Origin: a virus
Reading direction: 5' to 3' (one strand)
DNA length: 64,000 nt
Virus record (IMG/VR): IMGVR_UViG_3300029882_000268
Span: 1 to 64,000 of that record
The first letter of the stretch is position 1, and each line of letters opens with the position of its first letter. The notes beneath the pieces were generated by a model. That model had not been told where the DNA came from, ran no database searches, and saw only the letters and a program-made list of their open reading frames with translations. Both the position numbers and the translations under genes were made by a program. Shown here piece after piece: positions 181 through 42,496 of this stretch.

Positions 181-549
181 TTATACTCCCGCAGCTAAGC
201 CTTCTCCTACGGCAATATACTCATCCCCACAGTATATAGCAGCCGCCAACCGATGATAGCCATCGAACATCGAACCGCTGGCTTTCAGGGTAATTGGTGC
301 AGCGGCCTCGCGGTGCTTCACGAAATAGGCGATCCTGTAGACATGACTCTTGCGGCTGGATGTTTCATCCCTCGTCCAAGAACCGCAATGTTTCGTCCAT
401 GGTCGGCCCTGTTCGTCTAGTGCGGGGTCTTGAAGTGCTTGCTGAATCTCCTCGGAGGTAATCGGGTCGCGTCTCCATGACTGACTCCACGGAGGACGTT
501 GTAATGGGTCTTGTTTCTGCCTCAACGATTCTACGAGCACTCGGTTCAT
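181..549 (-). CDS. small protein with a ParB-like motif
   Basis: 122 residues. Near residue 95 it has FDGYHRLAAA followed by an I-A-V strand, the D-G-x-H-R-L-x-A signature of ParB/Srx-fold nuclease or CTPase domains. The N-terminal half is charged and unrecognised. The start is ATG at 549, overlapping the TGA of the upstream gene as ATGA, with GGAAG 5 nt before it. It is the last gene of the glycan operon. The motif suggests a ParB-fold domain, but too little of the fold can be checked to assign nuclease activity; it could be a small DNA-modification or partition-like orphan. Confidence 0.55.
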   Translation of the reverse strand: MNRVLVESLRQKQDPLQRPPWSQSWRRDPITSEEIQQALQDPALDEQGRPWTKHCGSWTRDETSSRKSHVYRIAYFVKHREAAAPITLKASGSMFDGYHRLAAAIYCGDEYIAVGEGLAAGV

Positions 550-1502
550 TTGATCTTCCTTCGGCTATCTGTGCCCCTATTATTGCGGTACAAAGCCCCT
601 TGACTCGGCTTCACGTGTCCCAAAAGAGCCCCCGACGCTGCCCTGTACACCTGTGCCGTTTGTGCTTTACGGGCGGGCGATGCCATCTTTTGCTCCATGG
701 TCGGTGGTGGGGGTGTGGGTCTCGGGGCTGCGGGCTGCTCTGGCGGTAGTATCGCCGCTGCCGCTTCGACCGGCCAAAGATCGGGGTGAAGCGACTTAAT
801 TCTCGCAATCAATTTCTGTCTGTTAGGGGTCGATGTCTTTCTATGCATCGAGTCGGGTCTCTCACGGTAGTGAAATAGTGGCTCGGGGACGATAACAAAC
901 CGCCAGCCACGCTCCGCAATGTCTAGCCACAGGTTCCAGTCCTCGTATCCGATGTGTTCCTTGTCGTATCCGCTTAGAGCGGGGTTGTACCCGCCGACTT
1001 CTTGAAGCACGCTACGTCGAATCAACGAACAAACGGGGATTGAATTGTCGGTTTTGAGTTGCTCAAGGGTCGGTGAGTATGTACGCCAGATGTAGTCCTT
1101 TATCCCGAAACAGGCGACGAGGGTGCCCACGACAGCCACACGTGTACCCTGCATCAGGGGCACCGTCTTTTTCAGATAGCTAGGGTCTATCCAATCATCG
1201 GCATCGAGCGGGAGAATGAACTCGTGCGGCTCCGCTGTCGAGACATTGATCCCCGTGTTCCTCGCGTAGGAGAGTCCCATGTTCTCCTGCGATATGACTT
1301 TCATGGTCGGCGATGCGGCGTGCTGACCATCCACCATCTCTTTGTAGCCTAAGGCGACGGCGAGTGAATTATCCGTCGAACCATCGTCCACCACGATCAC
1401 CTCAACGTTATCGTAATCCTGAGCGAGCGCCGACTGGATGGCCTGCGGGAGGTACTGTGCGAGGTTGTAGCACGGAATGATGATGGAAACTTTAGCTGCC
1501 AT
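546..1502 (-). CDS. family 2 glycosyltransferase (GT-A fold)
   Basis: 318 residues. The N-terminus is a textbook GT2 domain: VSIIIPCYNLAQYL, then VEVIVVDDGSTDNS, then LDADD (the metal-binding DxD) near residue 110, and an ED pair in YEDWNLW near 200. This inverting family transfers a sugar from a nucleotide donor onto a growing glycan in the cytoplasm. The last 80 residues are proline- and lysine-rich (PAAPRPTPPPP), atypical for the catalytic domain and perhaps a tether. I chose ATG 1502 because GGAG lies 7 nt upstream; a longer reading from 1532 would overlap the previous gene more. It overlaps that gene by 11 nt. Donor and acceptor cannot be read from sequence. Confidence 0.85.
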   Translation of the reverse strand: MAAKVSIIIPCYNLAQYLPQAIQSALAQDYDNVEVIVVDDGSTDNSLAVALGYKEMVDGQHAASPTMKVISQENMGLSYARNTGINVSTAEPHEFILPLDADDWIDPSYLKKTVPLMQGTRVAVVGTLVACFGIKDYIWRTYSPTLEQLKTDNSIPVCSLIRRSVLQEVGGYNPALSGYDKEHIGYEDWNLWLDIAERGWRFVIVPEPLFHYRERPDSMHRKTSTPNRQKLIARIKSLHPDLWPVEAAAAILPPEQPAAPRPTPPPPTMEQKMASPARKAQTAQVYRAASGALLGHVKPSQGALYRNNRGTDSRRKIK

Positions 1503-2133
1503 TGGTTGCTCCAATTTTCTGATAGTATTCATACATCATTTTGGGATCGTACTTTCTCTGCAACGCACTGGAGAAATGCAAAGAAACCATGTCTTTGTCC
1601 ACCGTTTCACCCGGACGCCATCTGTAGCCCCTGTGCCAAACGGGTAGAATTCCTTTATTCAGCAGCGCAATCGCCACAAACACATCCTCGGCATTCGTCA
1701 TTACCTCGGTGCTTGCGACGATTGCCATGGCTTTTTTACTCAACCAATACCCAGCCCCGCCGCTGGCAAACTGCACGGTCCTATTTCCCCAAGTGGGCAC
1801 TCTGTCGGCATTCTCACCCCCCATGTAGTCATGTTGTTCGAAGCCGCTGTGCAAGAAAGTCCACGGATTGACTAAGGTATCCGTATCGGTCTTGTGTATA
1901 AAATCGTAATCACACCCGTGCGCCCACGCGCACATCGCTCTGGTTTTATGGGAAAGGCCGAGATATCCGTCATCGACATCGAGAAACACTTCATCACTTT
2001 CTGGTTGCCCCGCAGGTCTCCCGAGGAAAAAGCGATAATCCACGTCCTTTAGGTCCTTCAACCACGTGTCTCGTTGGGCTTGATGGATCGAGCGATCCCT
2101 ATGGCAAGAAAGGATGGCGACTAAGATTTTCAT
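1492..2133 (-). CDS. GT31-like (beta-1,3-galactosyltransferase type) glycosyltransferase
   Basis: 213 residues with the order of GT31 landmarks: RDTW at the N-terminus, YRFFLGR, DEVFLDVDDGY, a KT pair before a Trp, the metal site KTDTDTLV (DTD instead of the usual DDD), GGAGYWLS, and EDVFVA. GT31 enzymes are inverting beta-1,3-galactosyl/N-acetylglucosaminyl transferases best known from animals. In animals they are Golgi-anchored; this copy has no membrane anchor and would be cytoplasmic. It is one of four paralogues in this operon, coupled to its neighbour by an ATGA overlap. Family call is fairly sure; donor sugar unknown. Confidence 0.75.
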   Translation of the reverse strand: MKILVAILSCHRDRSIHQAQRDTWLKDLKDVDYRFFLGRPAGQPESDEVFLDVDDGYLGLSHKTRAMCAWAHGCDYDFIHKTDTDTLVNPWTFLHSGFEQHDYMGGENADRVPTWGNRTVQFASGGAGYWLSKKAMAIVASTEVMTNAEDVFVAIALLNKGILPVWHRGYRWRPGETVDKDMVSLHFSSALQRKYDPKMMYEYYQKIGATNGS

Positions 2134-2924
2134 CTGGTGTGAATCTCCGGGATGTGGGTGGTTTTATACTCTACGGTTGGTGCCCCAAATTGGACTTCGG
2201 CGTTCGATCTGCAATCCTCATTACAGACGTGGGGAATCTGCATATACTGCGGTGTTGGCGATAATTGACCAATCGCCTCAAGAAAAAGGTGTGGCACTTC
2301 ATGGGGTTGCAACGCCCGGTAGTGCCCCGAACCATTATGCGGGAAGGGGTAATTGTCCGTATTACGCCCGTGCCGCAGGGCGACCATCATTTTTCCCACG
2401 GGAGCAATCGCTAGTTGATCCGCGAGACGGGCTTCTCTAGCAAAAACACTATCCTCCCCAAAGGACACGTTCGGGTACTGGTGCTGCTTCCACCACTGTT
2501 TCCAGTACATTTGGCTGGTGCCCGAAGCAAGGTATGGGGGTCCCCCCAAGTTCAACATGAACTTTTTATGAGTCACCTCATAAATCACAGTCTGGTTGTA
2601 CCCCGTAACGGACTTCCTCGAATTATGAAGACGCCGAACTTCGTCCTCTATCCTGTGAGGATGGCTCCAGTCATCGTCATCCCAATTAGCGATGATTTCA
2701 CTCGTGGCATTTTCCGCACCCAGATTTCTCTTAGCCCCCGTTGTTGTACGGGCGGTCAAATGAATATACCGTATTCGATCATCGTTGGGAATGGTCAAGG
2801 GCTCGGTCCCATCATCCACGATGATAAGCTCTAGATCGGGATAACCCTGCTGATAGAAACACCGAATCGCCATCGGGACATATTTTGCACGATTGTGGGT
2901 CGGCATAACTAAGCTGATTTTCAT
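2130..2924 (-). CDS. family 2 glycosyltransferase
   Basis: 264 residues. MKISLVMPTHNRAKYVPMAI, LELIIVDDGTEPL, the tract RNLGAENATSEIIANWDDDDW with the DDDD metal motif, and a later GEDSVFAR acidic pair form a complete GT2 core. The start is ATG 2924, which overlaps the upstream stop as ATGA and has AAGGGTG 8 nt upstream. A TTG-initiated form two codons longer is possible but less likely. It sits between GT10 and GT31 genes, consistent with a shared assembly line for one glycan. Specificity cannot be inferred. Confidence 0.85.
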   Translation of the reverse strand: MKISLVMPTHNRAKYVPMAIRCFYQQGYPDLELIIVDDGTEPLTIPNDDRIRYIHLTARTTTGAKRNLGAENATSEIIANWDDDDWSHPHRIEDEVRRLHNSRKSVTGYNQTVIYEVTHKKFMLNLGGPPYLASGTSQMYWKQWWKQHQYPNVSFGEDSVFAREARLADQLAIAPVGKMMVALRHGRNTDNYPFPHNGSGHYRALQPHEVPHLFLEAIGQLSPTPQYMQIPHVCNEDCRSNAEVQFGAPTVEYKTTHIPEIHTR

Positions 2925-3934
2925 TTCCAATCACCCTTAGTGACTGCTGATCGAATAATCACGAAATGGTCGAAACAAAAACCCCGCCCAACCAACGCGG
3001 GTGGTTGATCCGCTTCCCACTGCATGGTAGCGGGCTCGTGACAATCTTGGCCTGTCGAACCCCACCAGTCGGGAATGCCCGTACCTACGGCCTTGTAAAG
3101 TTCTGATGCCCATTCGCATCTTAATTTTCTATTGGTGGTAATAGCCCCCACCAAGAGCCCAATGCGATCTTTATATGCAAGAGCCTTCCGATAGTTTTCT
3201 TCTACTGCCGCCTGTACCTTTGATGAGTGATAGAAATCGGGTGTCAGGGAACCCAAAATCCCTTTGAGCCTCGTTGCCGTGGTATCACTGGGGGAAACGT
3301 CGCTAAAGGACAGTACGCCATCCAAGTTGAAAAACTGCCCAATGTTTGCACAACCCCAAAAAATCGGAATTGTTTTCGTGGCAAAACAGTCCAAAAGAAT
3401 TTCCGAGAAGTAATTGGGTTGTTGGGAGTTTTGAATCGAAATCGCATACTGAAAAGGCACCAGCATGTCGCGCTTGTCCTGTAGGTAAGGCGGCGACATG
3501 TGCATTTTGACGGGAAGGGGTAACTCACCTCCATCCCCCAACCATTGTTGTAGCTCTTTGAAAGTTGCAATGCGAAATCTATGTCCAGCACACATGGTTT
3601 TCGCGCTGGTTAAAAAAGAGACTTGAAACTTTTTTTGCGACGTGTCGCTTTCTTTAGTCCAAACCCCATTGTTAGAGAAGAGGACGGCGTTGGGGCATTT
3701 GCTGAGCACGCGACTGTTGTCGGTCAAAATCAAATCATAGAACTTGTGGTTCTTAATGAGCCTCTCCTCTGTCGGGATAATGTCTTCCGGCTCAAGCTGC
3801 CAAAAAACTTTGTACGGGGTGGTATCGGCAAGATTGAAACAGTCCACCGAGATAGACGTTTTCCAATTTAGCTCGGGAACGTTCAATTCGTAGTTGGCAT
3901 AAATCACGGGTTTGTACGTTTTACCTTCGGACAT
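2921..3934 (-). CDS. GT10-like fucosyltransferase
   Basis: 337 residues. The C-terminal half carries the Glyco_transf_10 core: YFSEILLDCFATKTIPIFWG followed by IGQFFNLDGVLSF, matching the family pattern Y-x-x-E-K-L-x(n)-P-I-Y-W-G ... F-N. The usual EK is EI here. GT10 enzymes transfer fucose from GDP-fucose in alpha-1,3/1,4 linkage (Lewis-type). ATG 3934 is chosen over a far longer reading because GGGGGAT lies just upstream and it starts 2 nt before the upstream stop codon. The extreme C-terminal 70 residues, rich in Trp, are unrecognised. A donor from the GMD branch of this operon, GDP-fucose or GDP-colitose, would fit. Confidence 0.65.
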   Translation of the reverse strand: MSEGKTYKPVIYANYELNVPELNWKTSISVDCFNLADTTPYKVFWQLEPEDIIPTEERLIKNHKFYDLILTDNSRVLSKCPNAVLFSNNGVWTKESDTSQKKFQVSFLTSAKTMCAGHRFRIATFKELQQWLGDGGELPLPVKMHMSPPYLQDKRDMLVPFQYAISIQNSQQPNYFSEILLDCFATKTIPIFWGCANIGQFFNLDGVLSFSDVSPSDTTATRLKGILGSLTPDFYHSSKVQAAVEENYRKALAYKDRIGLLVGAITTNRKLRCEWASELYKAVGTGIPDWWGSTGQDCHEPATMQWEADQPPALVGRGFCFDHFVIIRSAVTKGDWK

Positions 3935-3935
3935 T

Positions 3936-4184
3936 TTATCCCCCGTGTTCCTCGTACATACCGCGCATCCAATTGGAGGTGCTCGAATACCCAGTAACGG
4001 GGTCGGCAATTCCCTCTTCTCGGTAATGCCAAGCGGCTGCATGATGAAAATTATCTAGATTCTTGGCGGTGATTTCCCCCGATTTGATATACGGCCCCAA
4101 AACCTGCCCCACGTACTGGTCGCTAGTGCCAAAATAGTCGTCTTGGTTGCTGTTGACAACCAACTCCGATGCCTTACGACTCAT
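3936..4184 (-). CDS. C-terminal fragment of a frameshifted GT31-like gene
   Basis: 82 residues starting MSRKASELVV. It aligns with the C-terminal third of the intact neighbour at 4648-5352: MSRKA matches LSRRA, NLDNFHHAAAWHYREEGIADPV matches the LDHFWNETSWHYRAQGIIDPV region, and MRGMYEEHG matches MFDMYKKHG. Reading its frame upstream past its ATG keeps matching (a GTGWF just before MSRKA, like GGYF in the paralogue), so the ATG at 4184 is an internal Met, not a natural start. It is the tail of the gene interrupted at the C-tract 4274-4282. Whether it is translated separately is unknown; it overlaps the upstream stop as ATGA. Confidence 0.6.
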   Translation of the reverse strand: MSRKASELVVNSNQDDYFGTSDQYVGQVLGPYIKSGEITAKNLDNFHHAAAWHYREEGIADPVTGYSSTSNWMRGMYEEHGG

Positions 4185-4651
4185 GAACCACCCAGTGCCC
4201 GCATCCGCCGCTGCATAAGCTGGGCGCTTATAGAAGGGTTCATCGAAAGTCTCTCCCAGCGGTGCACGGTCGAGGGGGGGGGATAAAAGACCCCCGAATA
4301 ATCGTACTTTACAAAATCCGTTGTCTTAAGCTTGCTCGGAACAACGAATGTGTCATTGCAGCAGAGAAACGTGAAATCATAGCCCTGTTCTAAGGACCAA
4401 CGAAGCATCTCAATAGTCAATTCTTGGTAGTACAGGTTCCAAAGCAGCCAGTCAGCACCGCAAGCACGATTGGCTCGCTCAGGTAGCAGCACTTCATCCG
4501 ATACGGCCTTCCAACCGGGTGCGTCTCGATGCCCTATCATAAAGCGAAGGTCCCAAGGCGCTAGGTGCCCACCCCAAGTCTCACGAATCTTTTGGTGGTT
4601 CCCGTTGACGGAATCCCCCGTATGTGAATAAACAGCAACTAAAACTTTCAT
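4181..4651 (-). CDS. N-terminal part of a frameshifted GT31-like gene
   Basis: 156 residues. Up to about residue 125 it parallels the paralogue at 4648-5352 (MKVLVAVYSHTGD, IRETWG, LRFMIGHRD, YDFTFLCCNDTFVVPSKL, YDYSGVFY). After three prolines encoded by a nine-C run the frame changes to unrelated residues (STVHRWERLSM to a stop at 4181). Adding one C, or removing two, would join this frame to that of 3936-4184 and restore a protein of about 239 residues, close to the paralogue's 234. The apparent metal site is CNDTF instead of DDD. This could be a sequencing slip, a decayed copy, or a phase-variable gene. Confidence 0.6.
   Translation of the reverse strand: MKVLVAVYSHTGDSVNGNHQKIRETWGGHLAPWDLRFMIGHRDAPGWKAVSDEVLLPERANRACGADWLLWNLYYQELTIEMLRWSLEQGYDFTFLCCNDTFVVPSKLKTTDFVKYDYSGVFYPPPSTVHRWERLSMNPSISAQLMQRRMRALGGS
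4274..4282 (-). repeat. nine-base C homopolymer at a frameshift
   Basis: On the minus strand nine consecutive C residues follow GTCTTTTAT and precede TCGACC. This is exactly where homology to the neighbouring GT31-like gene switches frame. Such tracts are slippage sites for polymerases and for basecallers. Confidence 0.85.
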
Positions 4652-5352
4652 TGATCTGCTCCGTGTTTCTTATACATGTCGAACATCCAAGGAGAACCCA
4701 CGGGGTAGCCATCCCTAATCACTGGGTCTATAATCCCCTGCGCTCGGTAATGCCAAGAAGTCTCATTCCAAAAATGGTCAAGGGATTTGATCGCCATCTC
4801 CCCCCGCTCAGCCATAGGTCTCAACACATCACAAACAAGGTTTTCAAAGTGCAAATGGTCGGGGGTTGTTTTCAATACGGCCTCAGCCGCCCGTCGTGAA
4901 AGGAAATACCCACCGGGTTCCGCGTAGTAATAATCGGGCTTGTCTGCGTGAACGTACATCATCCAGCCAGAAAAATCATAGTTCTCAAAACCGAGTTTCA
5001 TCAACTTACGCGGGACGAGGAAAGTGTCATTTTCGGCGAGGAAGGTGTGGTCGTACCCGTTGCGAATAGACCAGTCCAGAATCCCCCGATACAGGACTTG
5101 CCAGTATTCTACACAGGTACACCCCGGCTCCGCGTGCCAATACGGATGCTGGCAGGTCCGCGTACCGTCTTCTTGCCAAGGGATCAGCGTTTCGTCGGGT
5201 TTCGGTTGATAGAATTTGTCGCGGCGACCTATAAAGAAGCGTAGGTCTGCGCCAGCGGGGGCAACGTCTTTACCCCAAGTCTGTCGAATCTTGTCGTGAT
5301 TTCCGTTTTCAGCATCTCCCTGAAAGGAGATGATGGCGATTAGAACTTTCAT
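4648..5352 (-). CDS. GT31-like glycosyltransferase
   Basis: 234 residues, intact paralogue of the frameshifted copy next to it. Landmarks: MKVLIAIISFQGD, IRQTWGKDV, LRFFIGRRD, YDHTFLAENDTFLVPRKL (ENDTF at the DDD position), GGYFLSRRAAEAV, and HFENLVCDVL near the ED position. The first metal residue of the canonical motif is not conserved, so metal dependence or activity may differ from 1492-2133 and 10504-11199. ATG 5352 has GGAGG 8 nt upstream and overlaps the preceding stop as ATGA. It also has Cys pairs (CQHPYW, CTCVEYW) absent from the other copies. Family call is moderate. Confidence 0.65.
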   Translation of the reverse strand: MKVLIAIISFQGDAENGNHDKIRQTWGKDVAPAGADLRFFIGRRDKFYQPKPDETLIPWQEDGTRTCQHPYWHAEPGCTCVEYWQVLYRGILDWSIRNGYDHTFLAENDTFLVPRKLMKLGFENYDFSGWMMYVHADKPDYYYAEPGGYFLSRRAAEAVLKTTPDHLHFENLVCDVLRPMAERGEMAIKSLDHFWNETSWHYRAQGIIDPVIRDGYPVGSPWMFDMYKKHGADQ

Positions 5353-6041
5353 TTTACAAACCTCCAACAACCACACCCGCCTTCACATTTTGCTACGAGG
5401 GCGGGATCGGCGTTGAGAATAAATTCCTGCGGATCATCAGTCCATAGGGCAAACTCGGCCACTTTGAGGGGATAAAACATGTCCACCACCATCTGGTACG
5501 AATAAACTCTCCCCATGTTGTAAATGAGACGTGGTTTTCCGCAAGGAACAGCCATGAGTAATTGACCCCCCGGCGCTAAGACGCGGACTAATTCCGCCGC
5601 CGCTTTTCTGTCCCCCGAAGCATCCACCGCGTCTCCATACCTGCCCAATCCGATGTGCTCAAGGGTGTGAAGGCTTGAAAGGGAATCTATTGAATTGTCG
5701 GCAAACGGAAGCGACGTAAGGTTGGCCTCACCGCAAACAAAACTGGACAATCCCTTACAGGGCATAGGGCGAAACTCATAGAACTCCATGGGAATGAAGG
5801 CCGACACCGCCACAGCCCAAAAATTCAAGGATGCAATATCGATGTGTTTAGCTGGTCGGGTAGCAGCGAGCACGCGGGATGCCCACCCCGTGTGATAGAT
5901 GTAGTGTTGGTCCCAAGTCAGTTGTTGCGTGTCCTCGTCTAACCGAGGAGACCAAATATCGCGGGAGGGAGTGAACCGCCCGTCAGCTTGAGACTCACTA
6001 CAAAGTTTCTGAAAATTCTGTTCGAAAGTTTCTGGCGTCAT
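5349..6041 (-). CDS. DUF268/SAM-methyltransferase-like protein
   Basis: 230 residues. The central part has HIDIASLNFWAV, GEANLTSLPFADNSIDSL, LHTLEHIGLGRYGD, and ELVRVLAPGGQLLMAVPCG, the pattern of a Rossmann class I methyltransferase of the DUF268 type often found in polysaccharide gene clusters. The glycine-rich SAM loop is poorly conserved (D-I-A-S in place of D-x-G-x-G). It ends in a Cys-rich CEGGCGCW. Operon context suggests it modifies a sugar of the glycan, but the substrate is unknown. ATGA overlap on both sides indicates coupled translation. Confidence 0.65.
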   Translation of the reverse strand: MTPETFEQNFQKLCSESQADGRFTPSRDIWSPRLDEDTQQLTWDQHYIYHTGWASRVLAATRPAKHIDIASLNFWAVAVSAFIPMEFYEFRPMPCKGLSSFVCGEANLTSLPFADNSIDSLSSLHTLEHIGLGRYGDAVDASGDRKAAAELVRVLAPGGQLLMAVPCGKPRLIYNMGRVYSYQMVVDMFYPLKVAEFALWTDDPQEFILNADPALVAKCEGGCGCWRFVK

Positions 6042-7210
6042 TTTAGGTACTCGTGCAAAACCTCTGAAACGTAGTGTATGTCGCTTGAGGTCAAGCCCTG
6101 ATGCATACCGATGAAGAAACCATTCTTAGCCAGATGCTCTGCGACTGGGTGATTGGCCGCTTCACCCGGGAACAATTTCTGATAGATCGGTTGGCTAAGG
6201 AGGGGAAAGAGATAGCGTGTCTCAATGCCCCGCTCTTCCAAGTACATCAGGAGTTTATCCCTACCGGAGACATCGAGCACCATGGGATACATCATAAACG
6301 AATGCTGATACCCCTCAGGCACGACGGGTAGCTGTAGCTCGGGGATATCGCTCAACAGACTCGTCAGTTCGGATGCATTAGTACGGCGGGTTAGGATGTT
6401 TTCTTCCCAACGTTCCAACTCGCTCAGGGCTATGGCAGCCTCCAGTTCCGTAGCGCGATAGGAGTAGCCCACACGTTCAAAACGATAGCGTCTCTCGATG
6501 ATTTGCTTTGAGAGTTCAATTGATTCGGGGTTGTCATCGTCATCAATGTTTGTGTAGATACTGTCACGTCCGTGTGCCATCAAGCTACGGCAAAGTCCGT
6601 CAAGCTCCGTGTTGCTGGTCGTTACGATACCACCCACACCGCCGACAATCAGGTGTGCGACATAGGTGGAAAAACAACCAAAGTCACCGAAAGACCCAAC
6701 AGACTGACCGTTTAGGTTCGCAAACATTGTCTCGCAGGAATCCTCGATTACCTGAAGCCCGCACCTACTCGCAATTTCCATGATAGCGGTCATATCAGCG
6801 GGCAGCCCAAACAGATGAACTGGAATGATACAGCGTGTGCGGGGGGTAACGGCCTCTTCGACCCTCGCGGGGTTTAGATTAAAGGTAAGGGGGTCAACGT
6901 CCACAAAGACGGGCTTCATGTTATTTTGGATGACGATATTGCTGGTAGCGATGAACGTGATCGCGGGAACGATCACTTCGTCCCCATCCTGATAGCCGTG
7001 GACTTCTTTGAGGGCCGCGAGCGCAACCTGTAGGGCACTGGTGCCGCTATTCATAAAAATGCCGTGCTTTGACCCGTGCAAATCAGCAAACCCCTTCTCA
7101 AAGGCAAGAGTGTACTCACCCTTTGATAGGCGATTGTTATTTAGGGCATCGTTGACGTACTGCTTGCCCTTCGTACTGATGTCCAGATTTCCTAGAGTTA
7201 TGGGCCTCAT
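6038..7210 (-). CDS. ColD-like PLP/PMP-dependent GDP-sugar 3-dehydratase (DegT/DnrJ/EryC1/StrS family)
   Basis: 390 residues with the full DegT fold: HGIFMNSGTSALQVAL near 50-65, DEVIVPAITFIAT, DVDPLTFN, VIEDSCETM, and GSFGDFGCFSTYVAHLIVGGVGG. In aminotransferases of this family that last segment carries the Schiff-base Lys; here the residue is His186 (codon 6653-6655). A His at this point is the hallmark of the dehydratases ColD (His188, 388 residues) and RfbH/SpnQ, which remove the C3 hydroxyl of a 4-keto-6-deoxy sugar. With GMD three genes upstream, the likely substrate is GDP-4-keto-6-deoxymannose. It starts as an ATGA overlap with the epimerase gene. Function is a strong inference, not proven. 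Confidence 0.8.
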   Translation of the reverse strand: MRPITLGNLDISTKGKQYVNDALNNNRLSKGEYTLAFEKGFADLHGSKHGIFMNSGTSALQVALAALKEVHGYQDGDEVIVPAITFIATSNIVIQNNMKPVFVDVDPLTFNLNPARVEEAVTPRTRCIIPVHLFGLPADMTAIMEIASRCGLQVIEDSCETMFANLNGQSVGSFGDFGCFSTYVAHLIVGGVGGIVTTSNTELDGLCRSLMAHGRDSIYTNIDDDDNPESIELSKQIIERRYRFERVGYSYRATELEAAIALSELERWEENILTRRTNASELTSLLSDIPELQLPVVPEGYQHSFMMYPMVLDVSGRDKLLMYLEERGIETRYLFPLLSQPIYQKLFPGEAANHPVAEHLAKNGFFIGMHQGLTSSDIHYVSEVLHEYLK

Positions 7211-7755
7211 AGGTGGAAAAACTCCTTCGCGGTTACGGCGTGTCGATCCCTATCCGACAAGATGGGGTGATCTTTTACAGGCCAGTCGATGCCGATAACA
7301 GGATCATCCCACAGGATTGCGTCATCGAATGCTTTATTGAAATGCCCCGAGCACTTGTACTGCACCTCGGAGTAATCCTCTAAAGCACAGAAACCCCGAG
7401 CAATGTCCGCCTCACCCCAAAGCTGAAGTTTGTCCCCCTCCTCCATAATGAGGCTGTAGTATTGTAGGAACGTGGGGGATTGTGGGTTAACATCAACCGT
7501 CACCATAAAAACTCTACCGCGTGGAACACGCATCAGCTTTGCCATGGGTGGTGTAGACTGAAAGTGCAGCCCTCGAACTACGTCCTTCATGGAGCGGGAG
7601 TGGAGATCGCGGACAAACGGCGGGAGACCCATTTCTTTCATCTCGTCATCGAGGTAAGTGATGTTAAAAAAGCCGCGACTATCCTCAAAACAGGTTGAGG
7701 ATATCAACTTCACACGCCCGCCAAACTTCTCGTCTTCTACCTTAAAGTGATTCAT
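7207..7755 (-). CDS. RmlC-like sugar 3,5-epimerase (cupin)
   Basis: 182 residues, typical RmlC length. Signatures: EDSRGFFNITY, VVRGLHFQSTPPMAKLMRV (with the catalytic His of RGLHFQ), VDVNPQSPTF, ARGFCALEDYSEVQYKC, and AILWDDPVIGIDWP. At the position where RmlC enzymes usually have the catalytic Tyr (an FY or YY pair after YKC) this protein reads HF, so the acid may be lost and the outcome may be a single epimerisation. ATG 7755 has AGGGGG 4-5 nt before it. Next to GMD and the ColD-like enzyme, it may epimerise C5 (or C3) of the GDP-keto-sugar on the way to an L-sugar. Confidence 0.75.
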   Translation of the reverse strand: MNHFKVEDEKFGGRVKLISSTCFEDSRGFFNITYLDDEMKEMGLPPFVRDLHSRSMKDVVRGLHFQSTPPMAKLMRVPRGRVFMVTVDVNPQSPTFLQYYSLIMEEGDKLQLWGEADIARGFCALEDYSEVQYKCSGHFNKAFDDAILWDDPVIGIDWPVKDHPILSDRDRHAVTAKEFFHL

Positions 7756-8755
7756 GTAGCCCCCTATGCCACGCGATTGTTCTCTTCAGACCCTCTTCCA
7801 GAGTGGTGTACTCGGTCTTTCCTAAGTCAGCCTCCATTAGAGAGATGTCCATCCGAGGCAGGGCGTGAGAACCGGGCAGTTCCTTATCCTCCTCTGGAAT
7901 TTGAATCGTTGACCCTGTAAGCCGAGCAACGATGGTTGCTAATTCGGCGATACTGGTTGTGGAACGCTCGCCAACGTTGTAAACGGGTTTTGTGCCGTGA
8001 AGGATAACCCTCCACAACATCGTCGCAACGTCTTTAGCGTAGCAGCATGTCCGCATCTCTTTACCTGAAAATTTCATCTCGATGTGATTGGCTGTTACTG
8101 CTTGATCGATAAATCCGCTTAGGGCTCGTTTGTCACCCTTACGAGCGCCGAGGCCATAGGTCAGGTTGAGGCGGGCAGACGCCGCGTTAACACCGTTCTT
8201 ACGGTAGGAGTGAGTAATTGCTTCGCCGCTCCGCTTTCCCTCAATGTAGCCCGCTCGTGGATGGTAGGGGGTGGTGGTTCCAATGTCTTCTTCCGTAGCG
8301 AACTCCTTGTGTAGACCGTGGTAAACTTCATTGGAACTCACAAAAAGGAAACGACCCCCCGAGTTGAGGGATTCCAACAGCCGTTCTGTAACGGCTGTGT
8401 TTACAAGAATGGTCGCTGCGGGGTTAGCCATGAAAATCATGGGTTGACCGTACCCCGCTGAGTGGATGATAACATCTGTTTGAGGCACCTTCATTGAATC
8501 GTGATAAAGATCGAACCCAGCAAGGGTCGCAAGCTCTTTGGTGTACGGCGCGGGTTCGCTGTGGTACTGTCCGAAACCCTCAATCTTGTACCCCTCCCGT
8601 TTGAGGACATAGAGAATCGTCAGGAGGTGCATACCGATTAACCCCGTAGCCCCCGAAATAAAAACACGAGCGCCATCGAGTGGTTTATAATCAACCACGC
8701 TTAGAGCTTCTTCAGCATCATGAATTAAGAGGTTAAGCATTTGAGTCGTTGTCAT
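7742..8755 (-). CDS. NAD(P)-dependent extended SDR (sugar epimerase/reductase)
   Basis: 337 residues. [13 protein letters not shown] is the Rossmann GxxGxxG; SSNEVY and YIEGKRSGE give the S...YxxxK catalytic set; [13 protein letters not shown] and [15 protein letters not shown] are the usual substrate-domain segments. It belongs to the dTDP-glucose dehydratase / UDP-glucuronate decarboxylase-like group rather than the GDP-fucose-synthase group, as far as motifs show. In context it is the best candidate for the final 4-keto reduction of the GDP-deoxysugar. The start is taken at 8755, where ATG overlaps the gmd stop as ATGA; a start at 8767 adds four residues. Confidence 0.75.
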
Positions 8756-9750
8756 TGCCAGTCCCATTCGTAAGGATTTCCACCATTAGGCCCACATTCT
8801 CTGCGAGCGTCCGCCATGTCCGCGTCAACCATCATGCGGACTAAATTTCGAAACTTCCACTGGGGTTCCCAACCCAGCATCCTTTTTGCCTTGGATGCAT
8901 CCCCGAGTAGGATATCTACTTCTGTGGGGCGATAGTATTTCGGATCGATCCCCACGTACTTGTTCCAGTCCAGTCCCAGATATTCAAATGTCTCATCCAG
9001 AAACTCCCGCACCGTGTGTGTTTCTCCCGTGGCAATAACGAAATCCTCGGGGGTGGGTTGCTGTAGCATGAGCCACATGGCTTCCACGTAATCTTTAGCA
9101 TATCCCCAGTCACGTTTAGCGTCAAGGTTTCCCAGCAAGAGTTCCTTTTGGAGTCCCACCTTGATCCTCGTCGCTGCTTTGGTAATCTTGCGCGATACGA
9201 AGGTTTCGCCACGCCGAGGAGACTCATGGTTGAACAGGATGCCGTTGCAGGCAAACATGCCCATTTCACGATAGTTCACGGTCGTCCAAAATGCAAACTG
9301 CTTGGCAATACCGTAAGGACTCCGAGGATAGAATGGGGTCTTTTCAGTCTGCGGCACTTCCAGCACCTTTCCGAACAATTCACTGGACGATGCTTGATAA
9401 AATTTGGCCGTAGGGCACTGTGCCTTGATTGCTTCGAGAAGCCGTAGCGTCCCCAAAGCATCTACATCGGCAGTGTACTCGGGGATGTCGAAGCTAACGC
9501 GCACATGGCTCTGTGCTCCCAAGTTGTACACCTCATCGGGTTGAATTTCCCCCACCAACCGACTCAGGGCACTACCGTCAGTCAAATCGCAGTAGTGGAG
9601 GTGGAGACGATCAAAAATGTGGTCAATTCGTCCAGTGTTGAAACTGCTTGATCGACGAATGACACCGTGGACTTCGTAGCCCTTCTCCAGCAGAAGTTCC
9701 GCCAAGTATGAACCATCCTGCCCCGTTATTCCTGTAATTAGAGCCTTCAT
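8752..9750 (-). CDS. gmd: GDP-mannose 4,6-dehydratase
   Basis: 332 residues, near the usual GMD length of about 345-370. It has [20 protein letters not shown] (NADP-binding), [48 protein letters not shown], and YxxxK in [10 protein letters not shown]: a full GMD signature. It converts GDP-D-mannose to GDP-4-keto-6-deoxymannose, the branch point to GDP-fucose, GDP-rhamnose, GDP-perosamine and GDP-colitose. ATG 9750, GGTGG upstream. It lies directly after the GT11 fucosyltransferase gene (4-nt overlap), tying donor and transferase together. No bifunctional GDP-fucose synthase is seen in the window. Confidence 0.93.
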
Positions 9751-10517
9751 ATTTTAATCCACCCGTCAGGTATGATGTCTCGACTGTCTAAATCCTTTGC
9801 AGAAAACCATCGTTTAGGTGCCACGACGATTTTATCTGGGTTCGGATTCAGCCACGCACCCCACCAACTGAAAGAACTGTTCACGATCACGTTGTGACGA
9901 CAGAGGGACATCAAGTGGAGGTCTTCAAACTTGCTTCCCGTTTCAATGACCGTCCCAGTCAGGTTATCCTCACACCATTTCGGGTCATCGGAAAAGATGA
10001 AGACCTTGGGGTTGGAAACCTTTTGTGAGATTGTACCAATGGCTGCCGTGTAATACGTTGGTTCCACCATTCCATGAAATGCGAGCAATTGCAGATAGTC
10101 GCCTCGGCGTACATGGAGGGAGATGCTTTCACAGCTTTGAATCTCCTTGGCAATTGCTTGAGCCTTTTCACTCAGCGAGGATTTCAGGGTCAATTCTTTA
10201 CGAATTGAGTCTTCGATGTTTAGGAAATACTTTTCTGTTTGAAAATAGCCGTAGACGATGGTAGGTTCGGGGATGTTAAGCATTCTCTCGTCAAAGGGTA
10301 GTCCGCTCTCGTAGAGTGGCGCTGCCCCAATAGGCGGGGGGTTGTGGAGCTTGACGATAGTATTGAAACCGTCTAGAGAATAGATGCGGTGGTCCGTAAC
10401 ATTGACAACCTGTATGTTCGTGAGATAGACCTCGCGACCCTGCGCTGCGAGTGCTCTACTGTAGGCGTATTGGAAAAGCTGATTCCCCAACCCTCCCATT
10501 AAATTAACTGTCACCAT
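9747..10517 (-). CDS. GT11 alpha-1,2-fucosyltransferase-like enzyme
   Basis: 256 residues. [20 protein letters not shown] is the GT11 N-terminal motif, HVRRGDYL near residue 137 is the GDP-fucose-binding HxRRxD motif, and [14 protein letters not shown] and [14 protein letters not shown] complete the family order. GT11 enzymes make the H-antigen linkage Fuc-alpha-1,2-Gal in animals and similar linkages in bacterial O-antigens. Some GT11 enzymes are reported to accept GDP-colitose, which fits the neighbouring ColD-like gene. ATG 10517, AGGAG 11 nt upstream; 14-nt overlap with the upstream GT31 gene. Cytoplasmic, no anchor. Confidence 0.88.
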
Positions 10518-11199
10518 GGATTTTCAACTCCTGAGCGTAGGTACGCATCATAGTAGGATCGCACGGATGAACGGCGATAAACTCGGAATTCCTCGGCATC
10601 GCGGCTACGCCTACGAATTTGCCAGCTATGGGATGATACCGCGTATCATGCTTTGGAATGATCCTAGCTTTACGCATCACCGACCCCACCCAGTGATCCT
10701 CTAATGTATTGTTTGGTTGCGCGGCTGCGACCAACCTAGCGGCCCTTGCGCTCAACCAGTACCCTAGTCCAGTCACGTAAAGGTTTTGAGGTGTATGAAC
10801 GCTGGCGGAACCCACATAGTCGTAAGCCTCAAACCCGCTCTTCATCAGGCGATCCACCCAAACAAAGGTGTCATCATCAGTCTTGAAGATGAAATCGTAT
10901 TGGCGCTCCCCTGACCATTGGCACACGCCTCTTGTCTTGTACGGCAGGCTTTTGTAGTCATCTGGAACGTCCAAAAACACTTCATCGGGTAGCGGCTGTC
11001 GATTCGCTCCGCGCCCATAGAAGAACCTCACATCGACATTGGGGTAAGCTGCAAAATCCTTGACCCAAGTCTCACGGCACGCCGCGATCTGTACGTCTAC
11101 GGGGATGGAATTGTGCTTCATCCTATTCGTCCAATCCCAGCCTTTACCCGGCATACCGACGTACCTATGGCAAGCCAAGATCGCTACCAGCACCTTCAT
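10504..11199 (-). CDS. GT31-like glycosyltransferase (canonical DDD)
   Basis: 231 residues; the most canonical of the four GT31-like copies. CRETWVKDF, VDVRFFYGRG, DEVFLDVPDDYKSLPYKT, a Trp, then FIFKTDDDTFVWVDRL near residue 105 with the DDD metal motif, GLGYWLSARAA and LEDHWVGSVM (the ED motif). These are the Galactosyl_T (PF01762) landmarks in order. An insertion near residue 15-35 (MPGKGWDWTNRMKHN) is not in the other copies. ATGA coupling to the GT6 gene upstream. In animals this family makes Gal-beta-1,3-GlcNAc, the acceptor for GT11 and GT6 enzymes. Confidence 0.8.
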   Translation of the reverse strand: MKVLVAILACHRYVGMPGKGWDWTNRMKHNSIPVDVQIAACRETWVKDFAAYPNVDVRFFYGRGANRQPLPDEVFLDVPDDYKSLPYKTRGVCQWSGERQYDFIFKTDDDTFVWVDRLMKSGFEAYDYVGSASVHTPQNLYVTGLGYWLSARAARLVAAAQPNNTLEDHWVGSVMRKARIIPKHDTRYHPIAGKFVGVAAMPRNSEFIAVHPCDPTMMRTYAQELKIHGDS

Positions 11200-11903
11200 G
11201 GCAAATTCCTCTGTTCAAATGGCTGCACCCCGTTCACGGCCGGGCGGTTGGGCGTACCCTTGGGGACACGCCAGATTTTGATGTCAGGAGTTTTAGTCCA
11301 GTTGTTGTACGGCAAGTCCAATTCCTTCGTCGGCGGGAATTCGTAGAAATAGCGATTGATGTGCGACTCATCATGCCATGTGGCGATAAAGTTGTTGGCG
11401 GTGTCGATATCGATCCTCTTGCTGATCGTTTCCGCCATGCTCAAGATTTTCTCAGTTGGTCCGCCCCAGAAACCGCCAATGTACATCTTACGGATGTCCC
11501 TCTTACTGAGGTAGGCGGTGGACTTCGGGTTCTCCTCGGGAGTGCAGTAACGCCCCTTGCTCAATTCGAACGAGGCGTGTACGCAAGCCGTGATGCCGTC
11601 AGAGAGGACTTCCGCCGCAGCTATCGGGCTCATCATGTTCATGCACACGTCCATGTAGAAAACGTACTTGTACTGGGACAGCCATTCCCGCTGGCTCAAT
11701 ATGGTATGGAATCGCATCAGTGTGGCGTTCGGCCATCCGGGATGCGGGTGCATCACCTGCTTGGCGACGGGAAACTGCTGAGGATTGTCCGTGAACAGAA
11801 GGATGTCGGCGGGAAAGAACGCACGCACCGAATCGACCGCCGCTTGGGTAAATTTCCAGTAGGCGGTGCCTGTACAGATGATTACGAGTGCTACGTCGCT
11901 CAC
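11196..11903 (-). CDS. GT6-family (ABO/alpha-1,3-Gal/GalNAc transferase-like) glycosyltransferase
   Basis: 235 residues. Family landmarks: VIICTGTAYWKF, ILLFTDNP, HPGWPNATLMRF, YKYVFYMDVCMNM, KMYIGGFWGG, and ATWHDESHINRYF near residue 178. The last two are diagnostic of GT6, which includes blood-group A/B transferases and alpha-1,3-galactosyltransferase. The catalytic DxD (DVD in mammals) reads DVC here, so metal binding may be altered; bacterial GT6 members are known with NxN. It lacks the stem and membrane anchor of animal forms. The start is GTG 11903, overlapping the upstream TGA as GTGA. Linkage is inferred from family only. Confidence 0.85.
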   Translation of the reverse strand: MSDVALVIICTGTAYWKFTQAAVDSVRAFFPADILLFTDNPQQFPVAKQVMHPHPGWPNATLMRFHTILSQREWLSQYKYVFYMDVCMNMMSPIAAAEVLSDGITACVHASFELSKGRYCTPEENPKSTAYLSKRDIRKMYIGGFWGGPTEKILSMAETISKRIDIDTANNFIATWHDESHINRYFYEFPPTKELDLPYNNWTKTPDIKIWRVPKGTPNRPAVNGVQPFEQRNLP

Positions 11904-12337
11904 GGCGTGACTCCCATACTAATCGGTTTGAGATACTGAATGGCTTTCGCAAGCAACTCGGGGGAGATTTTCAGCTTCTTCAGTCCCTCCATGCAGTCGG
12001 CACACAACAGCCCATGGACCCGCCCATCGCGGAAATCCACCAAAGTCTTCCTGTTATACAATACCAACGCCAAGTCACAGATCGGGCACTTTTTATCCTG
12101 AGCCCGCCAAAGGTCGAGGTACTGACCCGGGTGCATGTGGTATTCGCGTTCGAGGAAGGCGTCATAGGTGTGAACTTTCGTCCAAAACGTCCCACAATAG
12201 GTGTTGTGGCAGGTGCGGCAGTAGTAGGAGCGGCCACTGGCGGTGCGTTTGTTGAGGCCAAAAGCCGACAAGACGAGCCACTTTTCACACTTCCGACACC
12301 ATTTTGTTTTGTCGTTGAAGAGTCTTTTACGCCCCAC
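11900..12337 (-). CDS. endonuclease VII-type (HNH/ββα-metal) nuclease
   Basis: 145 residues if started at GTG 12337 (GAGGGGG 7 nt upstream, 11-nt overlap with the preceding gene); no ATG fits before the first zinc pair. N-terminal CRKCEKW and CRTCHN knuckles, then a recombination endonuclease VII-like core: QYLDLWRAQDKKCPICDLAL, VHGLLCADC and AKAIQYLK. In the place of the usual DHDH tract it reads VDFRDG, so the catalytic His may be lost. Probably a homing or free-standing nuclease inserted before the GT6 gene. Extending the frame upstream to 12742 gives implausible residues overlapping the HNH gene. Confidence 0.7.
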   Translation of the reverse strand: MGRKRLFNDKTKWCRKCEKWLVLSAFGLNKRTASGRSYYCRTCHNTYCGTFWTKVHTYDAFLEREYHMHPGQYLDLWRAQDKKCPICDLALVLYNRKTLVDFRDGRVHGLLCADCMEGLKKLKISPELLAKAIQYLKPISMGVTP

Positions 12338-12938
12338 TCGATGCCCCCTCTGTTTTCGGCTCCATGCAGGACGCACATCGAGATTGCTTGCCGTTTGGCA
12401 TACTAGCCTTATTTCCAAACATGTCGGGAACAAGCCACTGGCAACACCCGTTACACCAAATTGTTTGACCGTTAATTTTGCTGTAAGTCCCATCCGTGGC
12501 AACCCGATTTCGTCCACAATACGTGTCGGTTTGAGTGTGACAGTTGGGGCAAATTTTCTGTAGGTTTTCTCGGCGACAATCACCGCCATCGCCGTTTTTA
12601 TGGTCAATTTGAAACCGTAAGGGTCTACCATTCCAAATTGTCCCCTGTCCGCAGAGCATACAAGTGTCTGGTGTCTGTTTGTAAAACCGATTCTTAGCCG
12701 CCCATACGTGCTTAGAGTCTTGGCAAAAAACCTCCGCATCACTTAATTTACGACGACTTCGCCACTCACCTGTGAAATGATCTGTACTAAGCCCCAATTG
12801 TACGACCCATTTCTTCAAATTTGCCCCGTTATTGGCCTTTAACCCCAAAGCAAGGCACGCTCCCGTCCACGACTTTGCCTGTCGAACAGCTAGTGGGAGG
12901 TCTTCGAGTTTCCACTTTTTCGGTGTTTTTGGGGTCAT
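12327..12938 (-). CDS. HNH homing-type endonuclease
   Basis: 203 residues. The HNH core is CMLCGQG...LRFQIDHKNGDGGDCRRENLQ...CPNCHTQTDTYCG with two CxxC zinc pairs, the HNH-type DH and the N of EN. The N-terminal region (LPLAVRQAKSWTGACLALGLK ... NLKKWVVQLG) reads like a helix-turn-helix DNA-binding part. A second zinc pair (CNGC ... CASC) sits at the C-terminus. ATG 12938. It is the first gene of the minus-strand run that continues into the glycan operon and faces the plus-strand fibre gene at 13061. Mobile genetic element of the homing class. Confidence 0.82.
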   Translation of the reverse strand: MTPKTPKKWKLEDLPLAVRQAKSWTGACLALGLKANNGANLKKWVVQLGLSTDHFTGEWRSRRKLSDAEVFCQDSKHVWAAKNRFYKQTPDTCMLCGQGTIWNGRPLRFQIDHKNGDGGDCRRENLQKICPNCHTQTDTYCGRNRVATDGTYSKINGQTIWCNGCCQWLVPDMFGNKASMPNGKQSRCASCMEPKTEGASSGA

Positions 12939-13060
12939 ATCAGGTAATACCGCAATCCTCCTATTATTGACTCCTAAATAGAGAGTTTGCTAGTTAACAG
13001 ATTTTATTCGCTACCAAACCCATTGGATGTAGAGGATATTTCCTCCAAGGAACACTCACC

Positions 13061-15535: not shown

Positions 15536-15553
15536 GTCGCTGGTCAGACTCAT

Positions 15554-15584
15554 CGGGCTCCTCTCGGGGAGCCCGTTTTATTTT
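15554..15584 (+). terminator. intrinsic terminator
   Basis: CGGGCTCC (15554-15561) pairs with GGAGCCCG (15568-15575), followed by TTTTATTTT. It lies 19 nt after the stop of the DUF3494 gene. Confidence 0.9.
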
Positions 15585-15627
15585 GGAAAAACCTCAAAAA
15601 ATTACGTGGGGTTTAGTATTATAACAC

Positions 15628-16233: not shown

Positions 16234-16282
16234 AATTTCGGAAAACACGCCCTACTTCGACTCCATCACTTCTGCCCGCGCA

Positions 16283-42408: not shown

Positions 42409-42496
42409 TGGCGGAAAGCACCGGGGTTGAACCGGGCAGGTTACCCTGCTACACCTTCCCAAGGCGCATCTATTAACCGCAATAGCACTGCTTTCC
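42409..42496 (-). tRNA. tRNA-Ser-like element with a GGG anticodon loop
   Basis: 88 nt ending in encoded CCA. Acceptor GGAAAGC/GCTTTCC with G73; T-loop TTCAACC in a CCGG/CCGG stem; long variable arm GCAGG-GTAA-CCTGC; anticodon arm GCGCC-TTGGGAA-GGTGT, so the anticodon reads GGG. Long arm, GGA-type acceptor and G73 are serine-tRNA traits, while GGG would read proline codons. The D-arm is imperfect (CTAT/ATAG with four linker bases, A8 in place of U8). Could be a genuine odd tRNA, a decayed tRNA or a tRNA mimic. Confidence 0.5.

Follow-up and report, generated by a model that had tools for sequence, protein, structure and literature searches.

Why does a phage carry, in a single operon, glycosyltransferases of families that also act in the human ABO blood-group pathway, and what glycan might they build? 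The question is raised by the first 64 kb of the 90,118-base virus record IMGVR_UViG_3300029882_000268 (hereafter the window, 64,000 nucleotides), in which a minus-strand operon encodes GT6, GT11, GT31 and GT10-like enzymes together with a GDP-mannose 4,6-dehydratase (GMD). It is proposed here that the enzymes of this operon would assemble a branched oligosaccharide stepwise in the cytosol, the end of which would resemble the blood-group A/B determinant with a modified L-sugar; we regard this reading as nearly evenly balanced, with doubt slightly ahead. The blood-group-like logic is supported by a recurrent GT11-GT6(-GT31) unit more than by the family names. An earlier note on this DNA had suggested a histo-blood-group-like glycan; the idea was strengthened by the recurrence of the GT11-GT6 pair, by the coupling or fusion of GT31 to it and by the likeness of one GT31 model to B3GalT5 and B3GalT6, whereas fucose as the sugar and a Lewis role of GT10 were not sustained.

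Organization and recurrence of the operon

The genes that carry the argument are as follows.

11196-11903, minus strand: GT6 glycosyltransferase (ABO / BoGT6a family), PF03414 70.7 bits, cut-off 25
10504-11199, minus strand: GT31a, beta-1,3-galactosyltransferase-like, PF01762 39.7 bits, cut-off 23; motifs KTDDDTFV and LEDHWVG
9747-10517, minus strand: GT11, alpha-1,2-fucosyl/colitosyltransferase family, PF01531 113.5 bits, cut-off 23.9; motif HVRRGDYL
8752-9750, minus strand: GMD, TIGR01472 519 bits, cut-off 415
7742-8767, minus strand: NAD-dependent epimerase/dehydratase (SDR), not Fcl-like, PF01370 111.5 bits
7207-7755, minus strand: RmlC-like sugar 3,5-epimerase, TIGR01221 159 bits, cut-off 155.75; PDB RmlC E 2.5e-32
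6038-7210, minus strand: DegT-family enzyme in which His replaces the pyridoxal phosphate (PLP) Lys (FSTYVAHLIVGGVGG), PF01041 323 bits

The operon occupies positions 546-11903 of the minus strand and consists of 14 genes in 15 open reading frames (ORFs), one gene being split. In the direction of transcription, two endonuclease-like ORFs are followed by GT6, GT31a, GT11, GMD, SDR, the RmlC-like gene, DegT and a methyltransferase, and then by GT31b, GT31c (two frames), GT10, GT2b, GT31d, GT2a and a 122-aa ORF. The consecutive listed ORFs, the starts of which were assigned mechanically, overlap by 4-41 bases, with one exception: the likely start of GT10 falls 1 base beyond the preceding ORF. The DNA of positions 1199-16500 was also found in three other records (L002, L003 and L005) at 99.96-100% identity, and diverged versions of the operon were present in L146 and L149. 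Because of these near copies and diverged relatives, the operon is genuine and not a chance arrangement.

The overlapping ORFs and their recurrence in other records thus bore out the coupled glycosyltransferase operon described in the earlier note. The run that it had placed at 1492-11903 exists but is longer, with a GT2 gene (546-1532) and the 122-aa ORF (181-549) at the 3' end, and its gene list had omitted the RmlC-like epimerase, DegT, the second SDR and a DUF268-type methyltransferase. Its assignments of GT6 (from WHDESHINRYF), GT11 (from HVRRGDYL) and GMD agreed with the profile scores given above.

A major head protein (phrog_2522) and a tail sheath (phrog_2839) are encoded in the window, so the record belongs to a phage with a contractile tail. 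The closest named phage by head protein was Tunturiibacter phage Tunturi_5 (PP885688; 69% identity over 86% of the query), and since that phage grows on Acidobacteriota, a host from this phylum is likely.

The GT11-GT6 pair and its coupling to GT31

The co-occurrence of the transferases was followed in 50 viral GT6 loci, in a GMD-chosen set (the best 80 of at least 600 loci) and in a bacterial GT6 set (the best 80 of 187). The profiles for GT6, GT11, GT31, GT10, GMD, DegT, RmlC, SDR and Fcl were built from these loci, and distant members were possibly missed.

GT11 was present in 44 of the 50 viral GT6 loci, always on the same strand as the nearest GT6. In five of the six loci lacking it (L004, L017, L025, L041 and L051) GT6 lay near a contig end, and in the sixth (L031) GT11 was found elsewhere in the same record. 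Both genes occurred together in 13 of the 80 GMD-chosen loci, GT11 only in 13, GT6 only in 1 and neither in 53 (Fisher P 3.8e-7, a value that is too small, as the rows are related and kinship was not removed); the sole GT6-only locus (L196) is interrupted by the contig end. When the viral GT6 sequences were clustered, GT11 accompanied 18 of the 20 clusters at 70% identity and 5 of the 7 at 50% identity. The pair was also seen in bacteria: GT11 was located within 10 kb of GT6 in 48 of the 80 loci, and within 100 bases in 25 of these; some of the 32 loci without GT11 were shortened by contig ends.

GT11 stands directly before GT6 in most loci of a large cyanophage-like clade, and in the group around the window GT6 leads, separated from GT11 by GT31. 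Given these orders and that of the L012 type described below, the GT11-GT6 pair persists across more than one gene order.

GT31 is coupled to this pair in the relatives of the window. The order GT6-GT31-GT11 was found in the window, L149 and L311. In L006 and L309, GT31 and GT6 are joined in one ORF of 588 and 575 aa, scoring 294/207 and 117/192 bits with the GT31/GT6 profiles, respectively, and the L006 fusion is followed directly by GT11. Eight lineages of the window group carry both GT31 and GT11 (the window, L006, L146, L148, L149, L150, L158 and L311), and in seven of them the GT11 ORF overlaps the preceding GT31 ORF, by 14 bases in the window; in L150 a gap of ~600 bases separates the two. 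In L221, of the cyanophage-like kind, GT31 lies ~3 kb from GT11. None of the 80 bacterial GT6 loci contained a GT31 by the phage-made profile, which may miss distant members. A tblastn search of the phage collection with GT31a gave no match.

Properties of the GT31 and GT6 enzymes

Besides GT31a, the following GT31 features were recorded.

4648-5376, minus strand: GT31b, divergent paralogue with END in place of DDD; BLAST E 4.9e-15 to GT31a
4181-4651, minus strand: GT31c, first part, with a CND motif; BLAST to GT31b 46%, E about 1e-30 to 2e-30
3936-4184, minus strand: GT31c, second part, in another frame; BLAST to GT31b residues 159-240, E 1.5e-18
4274-4282, no strand assigned: tract of nine G, reading as C on the coding strand, close to the GT31c frame change; same length in L002, L003 and L005
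1492-2133, minus strand: GT31d with KTDTDTLV and AEDVFVA, PF01762 28 bits, cut-off 23; 37.5% to GT31a

An Asp-rich metal motif and an ED[VHY] motif are marks of GT31. Both were present, together with a sufficient score, in GT31a and GT31d (DDD and DTD; EDHWVG and EDVFVA). GT31b and the first part of GT31c matched these two copies at BLAST E 3e-8 to 5e-15, and no Pfam GT31 match was obtained for GT31b or GT31c up to E 1. The four GT31 genes of the earlier note were therefore reduced to two clear members and two divergent, Pfam-negative paralogues, and the idea of four GT31 enzymes of one kind was rejected, as the metal motif is missing from two, of which one is split. The C9 tract is the only C/G run of at least 8 in the window. 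It was nine long in all four near-identical records (the window, L002, L003 and L005), with no change of length; the tract hints at possible phase variation of GT31c, and it may also reflect a sequencing or assembly fault common to the near copies.

The predicted structure of GT31a (pLDDT 84.6) was most similar to B3GalT5 (Z 22.1, rmsd 2.5, 203 aligned residues) and B3GalT6 (21.8), followed by chondroitin synthase (20.8), B3GNT2 (~20), C1GalT1 (18.5) and Fringe (17.6), after which the values dropped to 14.5. GT31a is firmly a member of GT31; in the predicted model, galactose is only favoured over GlcNAc as its donor.

The window GT6 retains WHDESHIN with the catalytic Glu. Its closest solved structure was BoGT6a (4ayj, E 1.3e-24), the best human ABO chain following at E 3.5e-19; for a viral GT6 with a DVD motif (L009) the values were 4e-33 and 3e-32, respectively. 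Among the 57 distinct viral GT6 rows the metal motif was DAD in 39, DVD in 12, DVC in 3, DSD in 1, DGD in 1 and a gap in 1, and NXN in 0. The 83 bacterial GT6 domains (best 80 of 187 loci) had NAN in 44 cases and DXD types in 39, many of the latter in Chlamydiota and Dependentiae. In a 2014 report (PMC3961637), GT6 was described from 36 bacteria and 2 cyanophages, with DXD substituted in all but 1-2 of the bacterial proteins. The bacterial DXD share found here is larger than in that report, and the present set was selected with phage sequences. In the GT6 tree the viral sequences fell in several places, with at least four forced changes. Position 268 of the human A and B enzymes decides between GalNAc and Gal; the window GT6 has Gly there (YIGGFWGG), as in A, which is weak evidence for GalNAc as the donor.

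Two further GT6 observations were made. L006 (10001-10705 and 10705-12471) carries a GT6 protein 97% identical to that of the window within a mostly different operon, a pattern that may reflect the exchange of single transferase genes. L227, a contig of a Planctomycetota metagenome-assembled genome (MAG), holds at 8500-9234 a GT6 that falls within the window GT6 clade; its neighbours looked chromosomal by eye (DNA polymerase I-like and UvrB-like).

The L-sugar donor route

GMD is the entry point of the route to GDP-fucose, and the earlier note had taken fucose to be the sugar transferred. That inference was not upheld. No score for Fcl (GDP-fucose synthase) exceeded 35 bits in the operon, the value of the SDR, or 32 bits in the record (G000), which is possibly incomplete, against a curated cut-off of 500; a His-type DegT, RmlC and SDR are found instead. 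Fcl scores reached 279-328 bits in L148, L150, L151, L152 and L158 and 422-462 bits in two cyanophages, and the best solved relative of the ACG-2014f protein was the E. coli GDP-fucose synthase (E 1.9e-91). Fucose as the donor is thus unsupported in the window and survives as an alternative with supply by the host.

In 3-dehydrases such as ColD and RfbH, the PLP Lys is characteristically replaced by His. The FSTYVAHLIVGGVGG stretch of the window DegT aligned with the His-type rows, at the position of ColD His188 (taken from ColD mutant chains), and the His is retained in L146, L149, L150 and L158. The window DegT would thus be an NDP-4-keto-6-deoxyhexose 3-dehydrase. Its best NCBIfam model was RfbH, at 226.8 bits far under the cut-off of 423, and perosamine synthase scored higher than ColD; for these reasons the enzyme is said to work like ColD, if the alignment is a guide, rather than to be a ColD. 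The SDR, the closest PDB structure of which was UDP-glucuronate decarboxylase (E 1.1e-25), would act as a C4 reductase.

The viral-locus DegT rows were His-type in 34 cases, Lys in 7 and unreadable in 1. For these counts an Fcl-like gene was one scoring >200 bits with the profile built here, and the rows include same-contig copies. All 12 His-type rows without an Fcl-like gene had RmlC and SDR; they represent three lineages, namely the window clade (9 rows), L146/L147 and L149. The 22 rows with an Fcl-like gene had this SDR in 0 cases and RmlC in 2 (L007 and L016). The same DegT subtype is clustered with an Fcl-like gene in L150 and L158. Because Fcl and RmlC+SDR replace each other beside the same DegT, RmlC and SDR appear to stand in for Fcl/ColC, which would lead to a GDP-3,6-dideoxy-L-hexose.

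Judged from their gene content, other relatives appear to use fucose or L-galactose routes instead. GMD and an Fcl-like gene were found in L148, L151 and L152, with no DegT in the stretch. L006 encodes a GDP-mannose 3,5-epimerase (PDB E 2.5e-92; a close copy was seen by eye in L309), which would yield GDP-L-galactose. For the window, the L-sugar is probably not fucose, and 3-deoxy-fucose (a colitose-type sugar) is likelier. According to PMC12723683, the natural donor of the alpha-1,2-colitosyltransferase WbgN of E. coli O55 is GDP-colitose, GDP-fucose being tolerated, and the enzyme is strict for the type-1 acceptor, the only one that it fucosylated. The L-colitose of bacterial O-antigens is regarded in PMC11987014 as structurally analogous to L-fucose.

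GT10-like and GT2 transferases

2921-3934, minus strand: GT10-like fucosyltransferase, PF00852 15.2 bits; the reading frame is open from 4042, with 3934 as the likely start Met
2130-2930, minus strand: GT2 glycosyltransferase b, PF00535 77.6 bits
546-1532, minus strand: GT2 glycosyltransferase a, with a Pro-rich linker and the C-terminal tail GHVKPSQGALYRNNRGTDSRRKIK, PF00535 116.7 bits

The earlier note had assigned a Lewis-type core to GT10. The score of the window protein is below the PF00852 cut-off of 23.9, but four of six relatives exceeded it (L189 47.4, L206 40.5, L149 30.2 and L146 29.3 bits), L152 (22.4) and L151 (20.2) remaining under it. In the predicted model (pLDDT 76.4), Foldseek placed an alpha-1,3-fucosyltransferase first (E 2.5e-7, TM 0.41) and FUT9 gave Z 14.7, with other GT-B enzymes nearly equal at 14.0 and below. 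By its relatives and its candidate fold GT10 is a weakly assigned member of its family, and the Lewis reading was dropped to this family call on account of the low score and of a lost Lys.

Destination of the glycan

Genes that would place a glycan on a lipid carrier were sought in this and related records, some possibly incomplete. Initiating sugar-phosphate transferases were found in 0 of 10 records (PF02397) and 0 of 11 (PF00953, WecA-type), and the Wzx flippase (PF01943) in 0 of 10; polymerase families were not searched, and the controls matched in 9, 12 and 13 of 14. This result fits a protein acceptor or a lipid-linked acceptor made by the host. The glycosylation ORFs appeared soluble by a crude measure, the highest 19-residue Kyte-Doolittle mean being 1.71, in the SDR.

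Transferases of three kinds, from four related phage lineages, share the C-terminal tail KPSQGxLYRN...RKxx: GT2a in the window (C-terminus of 546-1532), the GT31-GT6 fusions of L006 (12403) and L309 (about 4180), and a GT2-GT2-GT31 protein of L149 (14036), the GT2 parts of which were identified by BLAST to GT2b and by eye. A Cys/His-rich stretch, CNRH...CSVC, precedes the tail in L006, L309 and L149. As a guess, the tail tethers the last transferase to a common partner.

Proposed pathway and its alternatives

From the observed families, motifs, gene order, recurrence and fusions, and from the lack of an Fcl-like gene in the record, we infer the activities, linkages, donor and acceptor of the following scheme. 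GT31a would add Gal in beta-1,3 linkage to an acceptor sugar, GT11 would place an L-fucose-like sugar in alpha-1,2 linkage on that Gal, and GT6 would attach GalNAc or Gal in alpha-1,3 linkage to the same Gal. For the L-sugar donor, GMD would convert GDP-mannose to GDP-4-keto-6-deoxymannose, and the His-type DegT would then remove O3. The RmlC-like epimerase and the SDR reductase would together do the work of the bifunctional Fcl/ColC, the product being GDP-colitose or a close 3,6-dideoxy-L-hexose. GT10, the GT2 enzymes and the other GT31 proteins might extend or branch the chain, and the acceptor would be a virion protein or a host lipid-linked glycan.

Several observations weigh against this scheme or its parts. 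The window GT6 carries DVC, a half-lost metal site outside the DXD/NXN types, when DXD was found in 53 of the 56 distinct viral sequences that have residues at this site, the remaining three being those of the window clade and L006. Family membership thus rests on the score, the metal mode is uncertain, and this copy may work differently or poorly. The metal motif is lost in two GT31 proteins (END in GT31b, CND in GT31c), and Foldseek ranked B3GNT2, a GlcNAc transferase, above B3GalT5 for GT31a. The window GT10 reads YFSEI, with Ile for the Lys of an EK pair that is present in the other 12 of 13 aligned rows (TEK/SEK); we take this Lys to bind the donor. GT11 and GT31 members can have other linkages. 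L012, L013, L050 and L165 have GT6 (first) and GT11 with no GT31 found, and a like operon in L146 is without GT6, which would make the A/B-like end optional. In the donor route, DegT scored 199.6 bits with perosamine synthase (best PDB match), 171.6 with the His-type E1 and 151.2 with ColD; the RmlC-like protein passes the dTDP-rhamnose model (TIGR01221); and the phage Fcl-like proteins exceeded the curated 500-bit cut-off in 0 of 13 records (best 462). Two small thiamine-diphosphate enzyme subunits adjoin SDR-RmlC-DegT in L146 (3570-4690; E1_dh and Transket_pyr by Pfam) and L149 (6092-7242; the same by eye), so the product of this trio may be a branched sugar and not colitose. No such subunits were seen in the window operon.

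The last point also bears on a different account of the donor, in which GT11 and GT10 use host GDP-fucose and the trio makes a separate (branched or amino) sugar for a GT2. The thiamine subunits beside the trio in L146 and L149 and the perosamine synthase match of DegT speak for it; on this account GMD, with no Fcl beside it, would feed the trio alone. GMD is, however, the sole recognised 4,6-dehydratase in the window, L146 and L149 operons, and an Fcl-like gene (L150, L158) and RmlC+SDR (window, L146, L149) interchange beside the same DegT subtype; we hold host supply of fucose to be unlikely. As to the place of the glycan, a structural protein of the phage might receive the chain from soluble transferases in the cytosol, in the way that chloroviruses glycosylate their capsid protein. 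The apparently soluble ORFs, the lack of the searched lipid-carrier genes in 10-11 records and a shared tail on different terminal transferases, which could be a docking tag, are consistent with such virion glycosylation, and GT31a has a capsid transferase of PBCV-1 among its GT-A neighbours, though far down (Z 12.8). On the other side, no acceptor protein or glycosylation site was recognised, and by eye the L146 operon does not adjoin structural genes; virion glycosylation is possible, with the chances somewhat against it.

The cluster might otherwise derive from bacterial O-antigen or capsule loci and remodel host lipopolysaccharide or exopolysaccharide, the ABO/Lewis likeness then reflecting family membership with other linkages. 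GT6 and GT11 also occur together in the bacterial loci counted above, the gene content is shuffled between related phages in an O-antigen-like way, and comparable cyanophage genes are read as cell-wall synthesis/modification in PMC9602691. The negative searches for PF02397, PF00953 and PF01943 stand against this origin, even if the host could supply these functions, and because GT31 was in none of the 80 bacterial GT6 loci the cassette is no plain copy of those; we find a host-surface role rather doubtful. Some phages glycosylate DNA, and the transferases might decorate modified bases of the phage genome. Nothing specific here beyond that general precedent points to it, the scan of operon ORFs revealed no enzyme that modifies bases, and the GMD, GT6, GT11 and GT31 set matches oligosaccharide ends and is, to our knowledge, unlike known DNA transferases; DNA hypermodification is very improbable.

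A bolder form of the proposed pathway was also considered, which we think improbable at present. Phages would own a modular blood-group machine with a conserved GT31-GT11-GT6 core and an exchangeable L-sugar slot, varying an antigen on virions or infected cells in an arms race. The slot might take L-fucose (GMD and Fcl), L-galactose (GDP-mannose 3,5-epimerase) or 3-deoxy-fucose (GMD and the His-type DegT with either Fcl/ColC or RmlC+SDR), and the poly-C tract in one transferase is a possible further switch.

If the pathway is true, the ABO order of addition (Gal, alpha-1,2 L-sugar, alpha-1,3 GalNAc or Gal) would be a widespread viral and bacterial module, of which phages would offer natural variants with another L-sugar at the same place, and the destination of a phage glycan would become testable. 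Glycan synthesis would also gain GT6 enzymes of the DXD type and soluble GT31 enzymes, and RmlC+SDR would be a second enzyme route to colitose-type donors.

Neighbouring genes

5349-6041, minus strand: methyltransferase, DUF268 / Methyltransf_11, PF03269 48 bits and PF08241 31 bits
181-549, minus strand: 122-aa ORF, overlapping GT2a; 99% identical in L006

An EndoVII-like ORF, which overlaps the 5' end of the operon, and an HNH-like ORF (below cut-off) lie at 11900-12938, and a GIY-YIG-like ORF was seen by eye at 15628-16233; these flanking ORFs are possible movers of the cassette. An Ice_binding (DUF3494) ORF of 824 aa with two such stretches adjoins the glycan operon at 13061-15535 (plus strand), and a DUF2793 and Ice_binding protein that also matches tail-fibre PHROGs is encoded at 26769-28613 (minus strand). 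Among the matches listed in the literature search, none reported phage-encoded Ice_binding proteins by title. A lone tRNA-Pro (GGG) gene is located at 42409-42496 (minus strand).

Comparison with known systems

In the titles and abstract openings of open-access papers, among the matches listed, no phage GT31, GT31-GT11-GT6 unit or phage-made colitose was found (one search used the exact word GT31). Tunturi_5 has annotated galactosyl transferases (gp300 and gp301), which are listed in the Tunturi paper (PMC11924767), and no such operon is annotated within two stretches of its genome covering 222-302 kb.

Human ABO, Secretor, B3GALT5 and Lewis enzymes are Golgi-anchored. The window shares with that pathway at least one member each of GT6, GT11, GT31 and GT10; it differs in low identity, in apparently soluble, cytosolic enzymes and in a donor that is probably not GDP-fucose. 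Common family ancestry with the human enzymes does not show common linkages. Chloroviruses and mimivirus have their own nucleotide-sugar and transferase sets, which act outside the secretory pathway. These are eukaryotic viruses, however, with transferases unrelated to those of the window.

Bacterial enzymes that mimic blood-group synthesis form another parallel. We take WbnI to come from E. coli O86 and WbgN to belong to GT11. BoGT6a, H. mustelae BgtA and E. coli WbnI are of the GT6 family, as is the window enzyme (PMC3961637), and in E. coli O55 WbgN colitose naturally replaces fucose on the type-1 chain (PMC12723683). The BoGT6a-type bacterial GT6 has NXN, whereas phage GT6 has DXD and the window DVC, and the phage operon adds GT31.

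Close phage systems are known from cyanophages. The genes reported for S-SCSM1 include GMD, GDP-fucose synthase, GDP-mannose 3,5-epimerase and an alpha-1,2-fucosyltransferase, with the interpretation given above (PMC9602691). P-SSM2 (AY939844) and ACG-2014f (KJ019091) likewise carry GMD, an Fcl-like SDR, GT11 and GT6 in one cluster, and their GenBank entries name GT11 and GT6; ACG-2014f also has a ColD-like His-type DegT (PDB ColD E 5.7e-51). In contrast to the window, these stretches yielded no GT31 and hold an Fcl-like gene where the window has RmlC+SDR, and in the tree their GT6 proteins belong to different clades. The combination of GT11 and GT6 in a phage is therefore already known, and what is new in the window and its relatives is the coupling of GT31 to this pair and the apparently swappable L-sugar.

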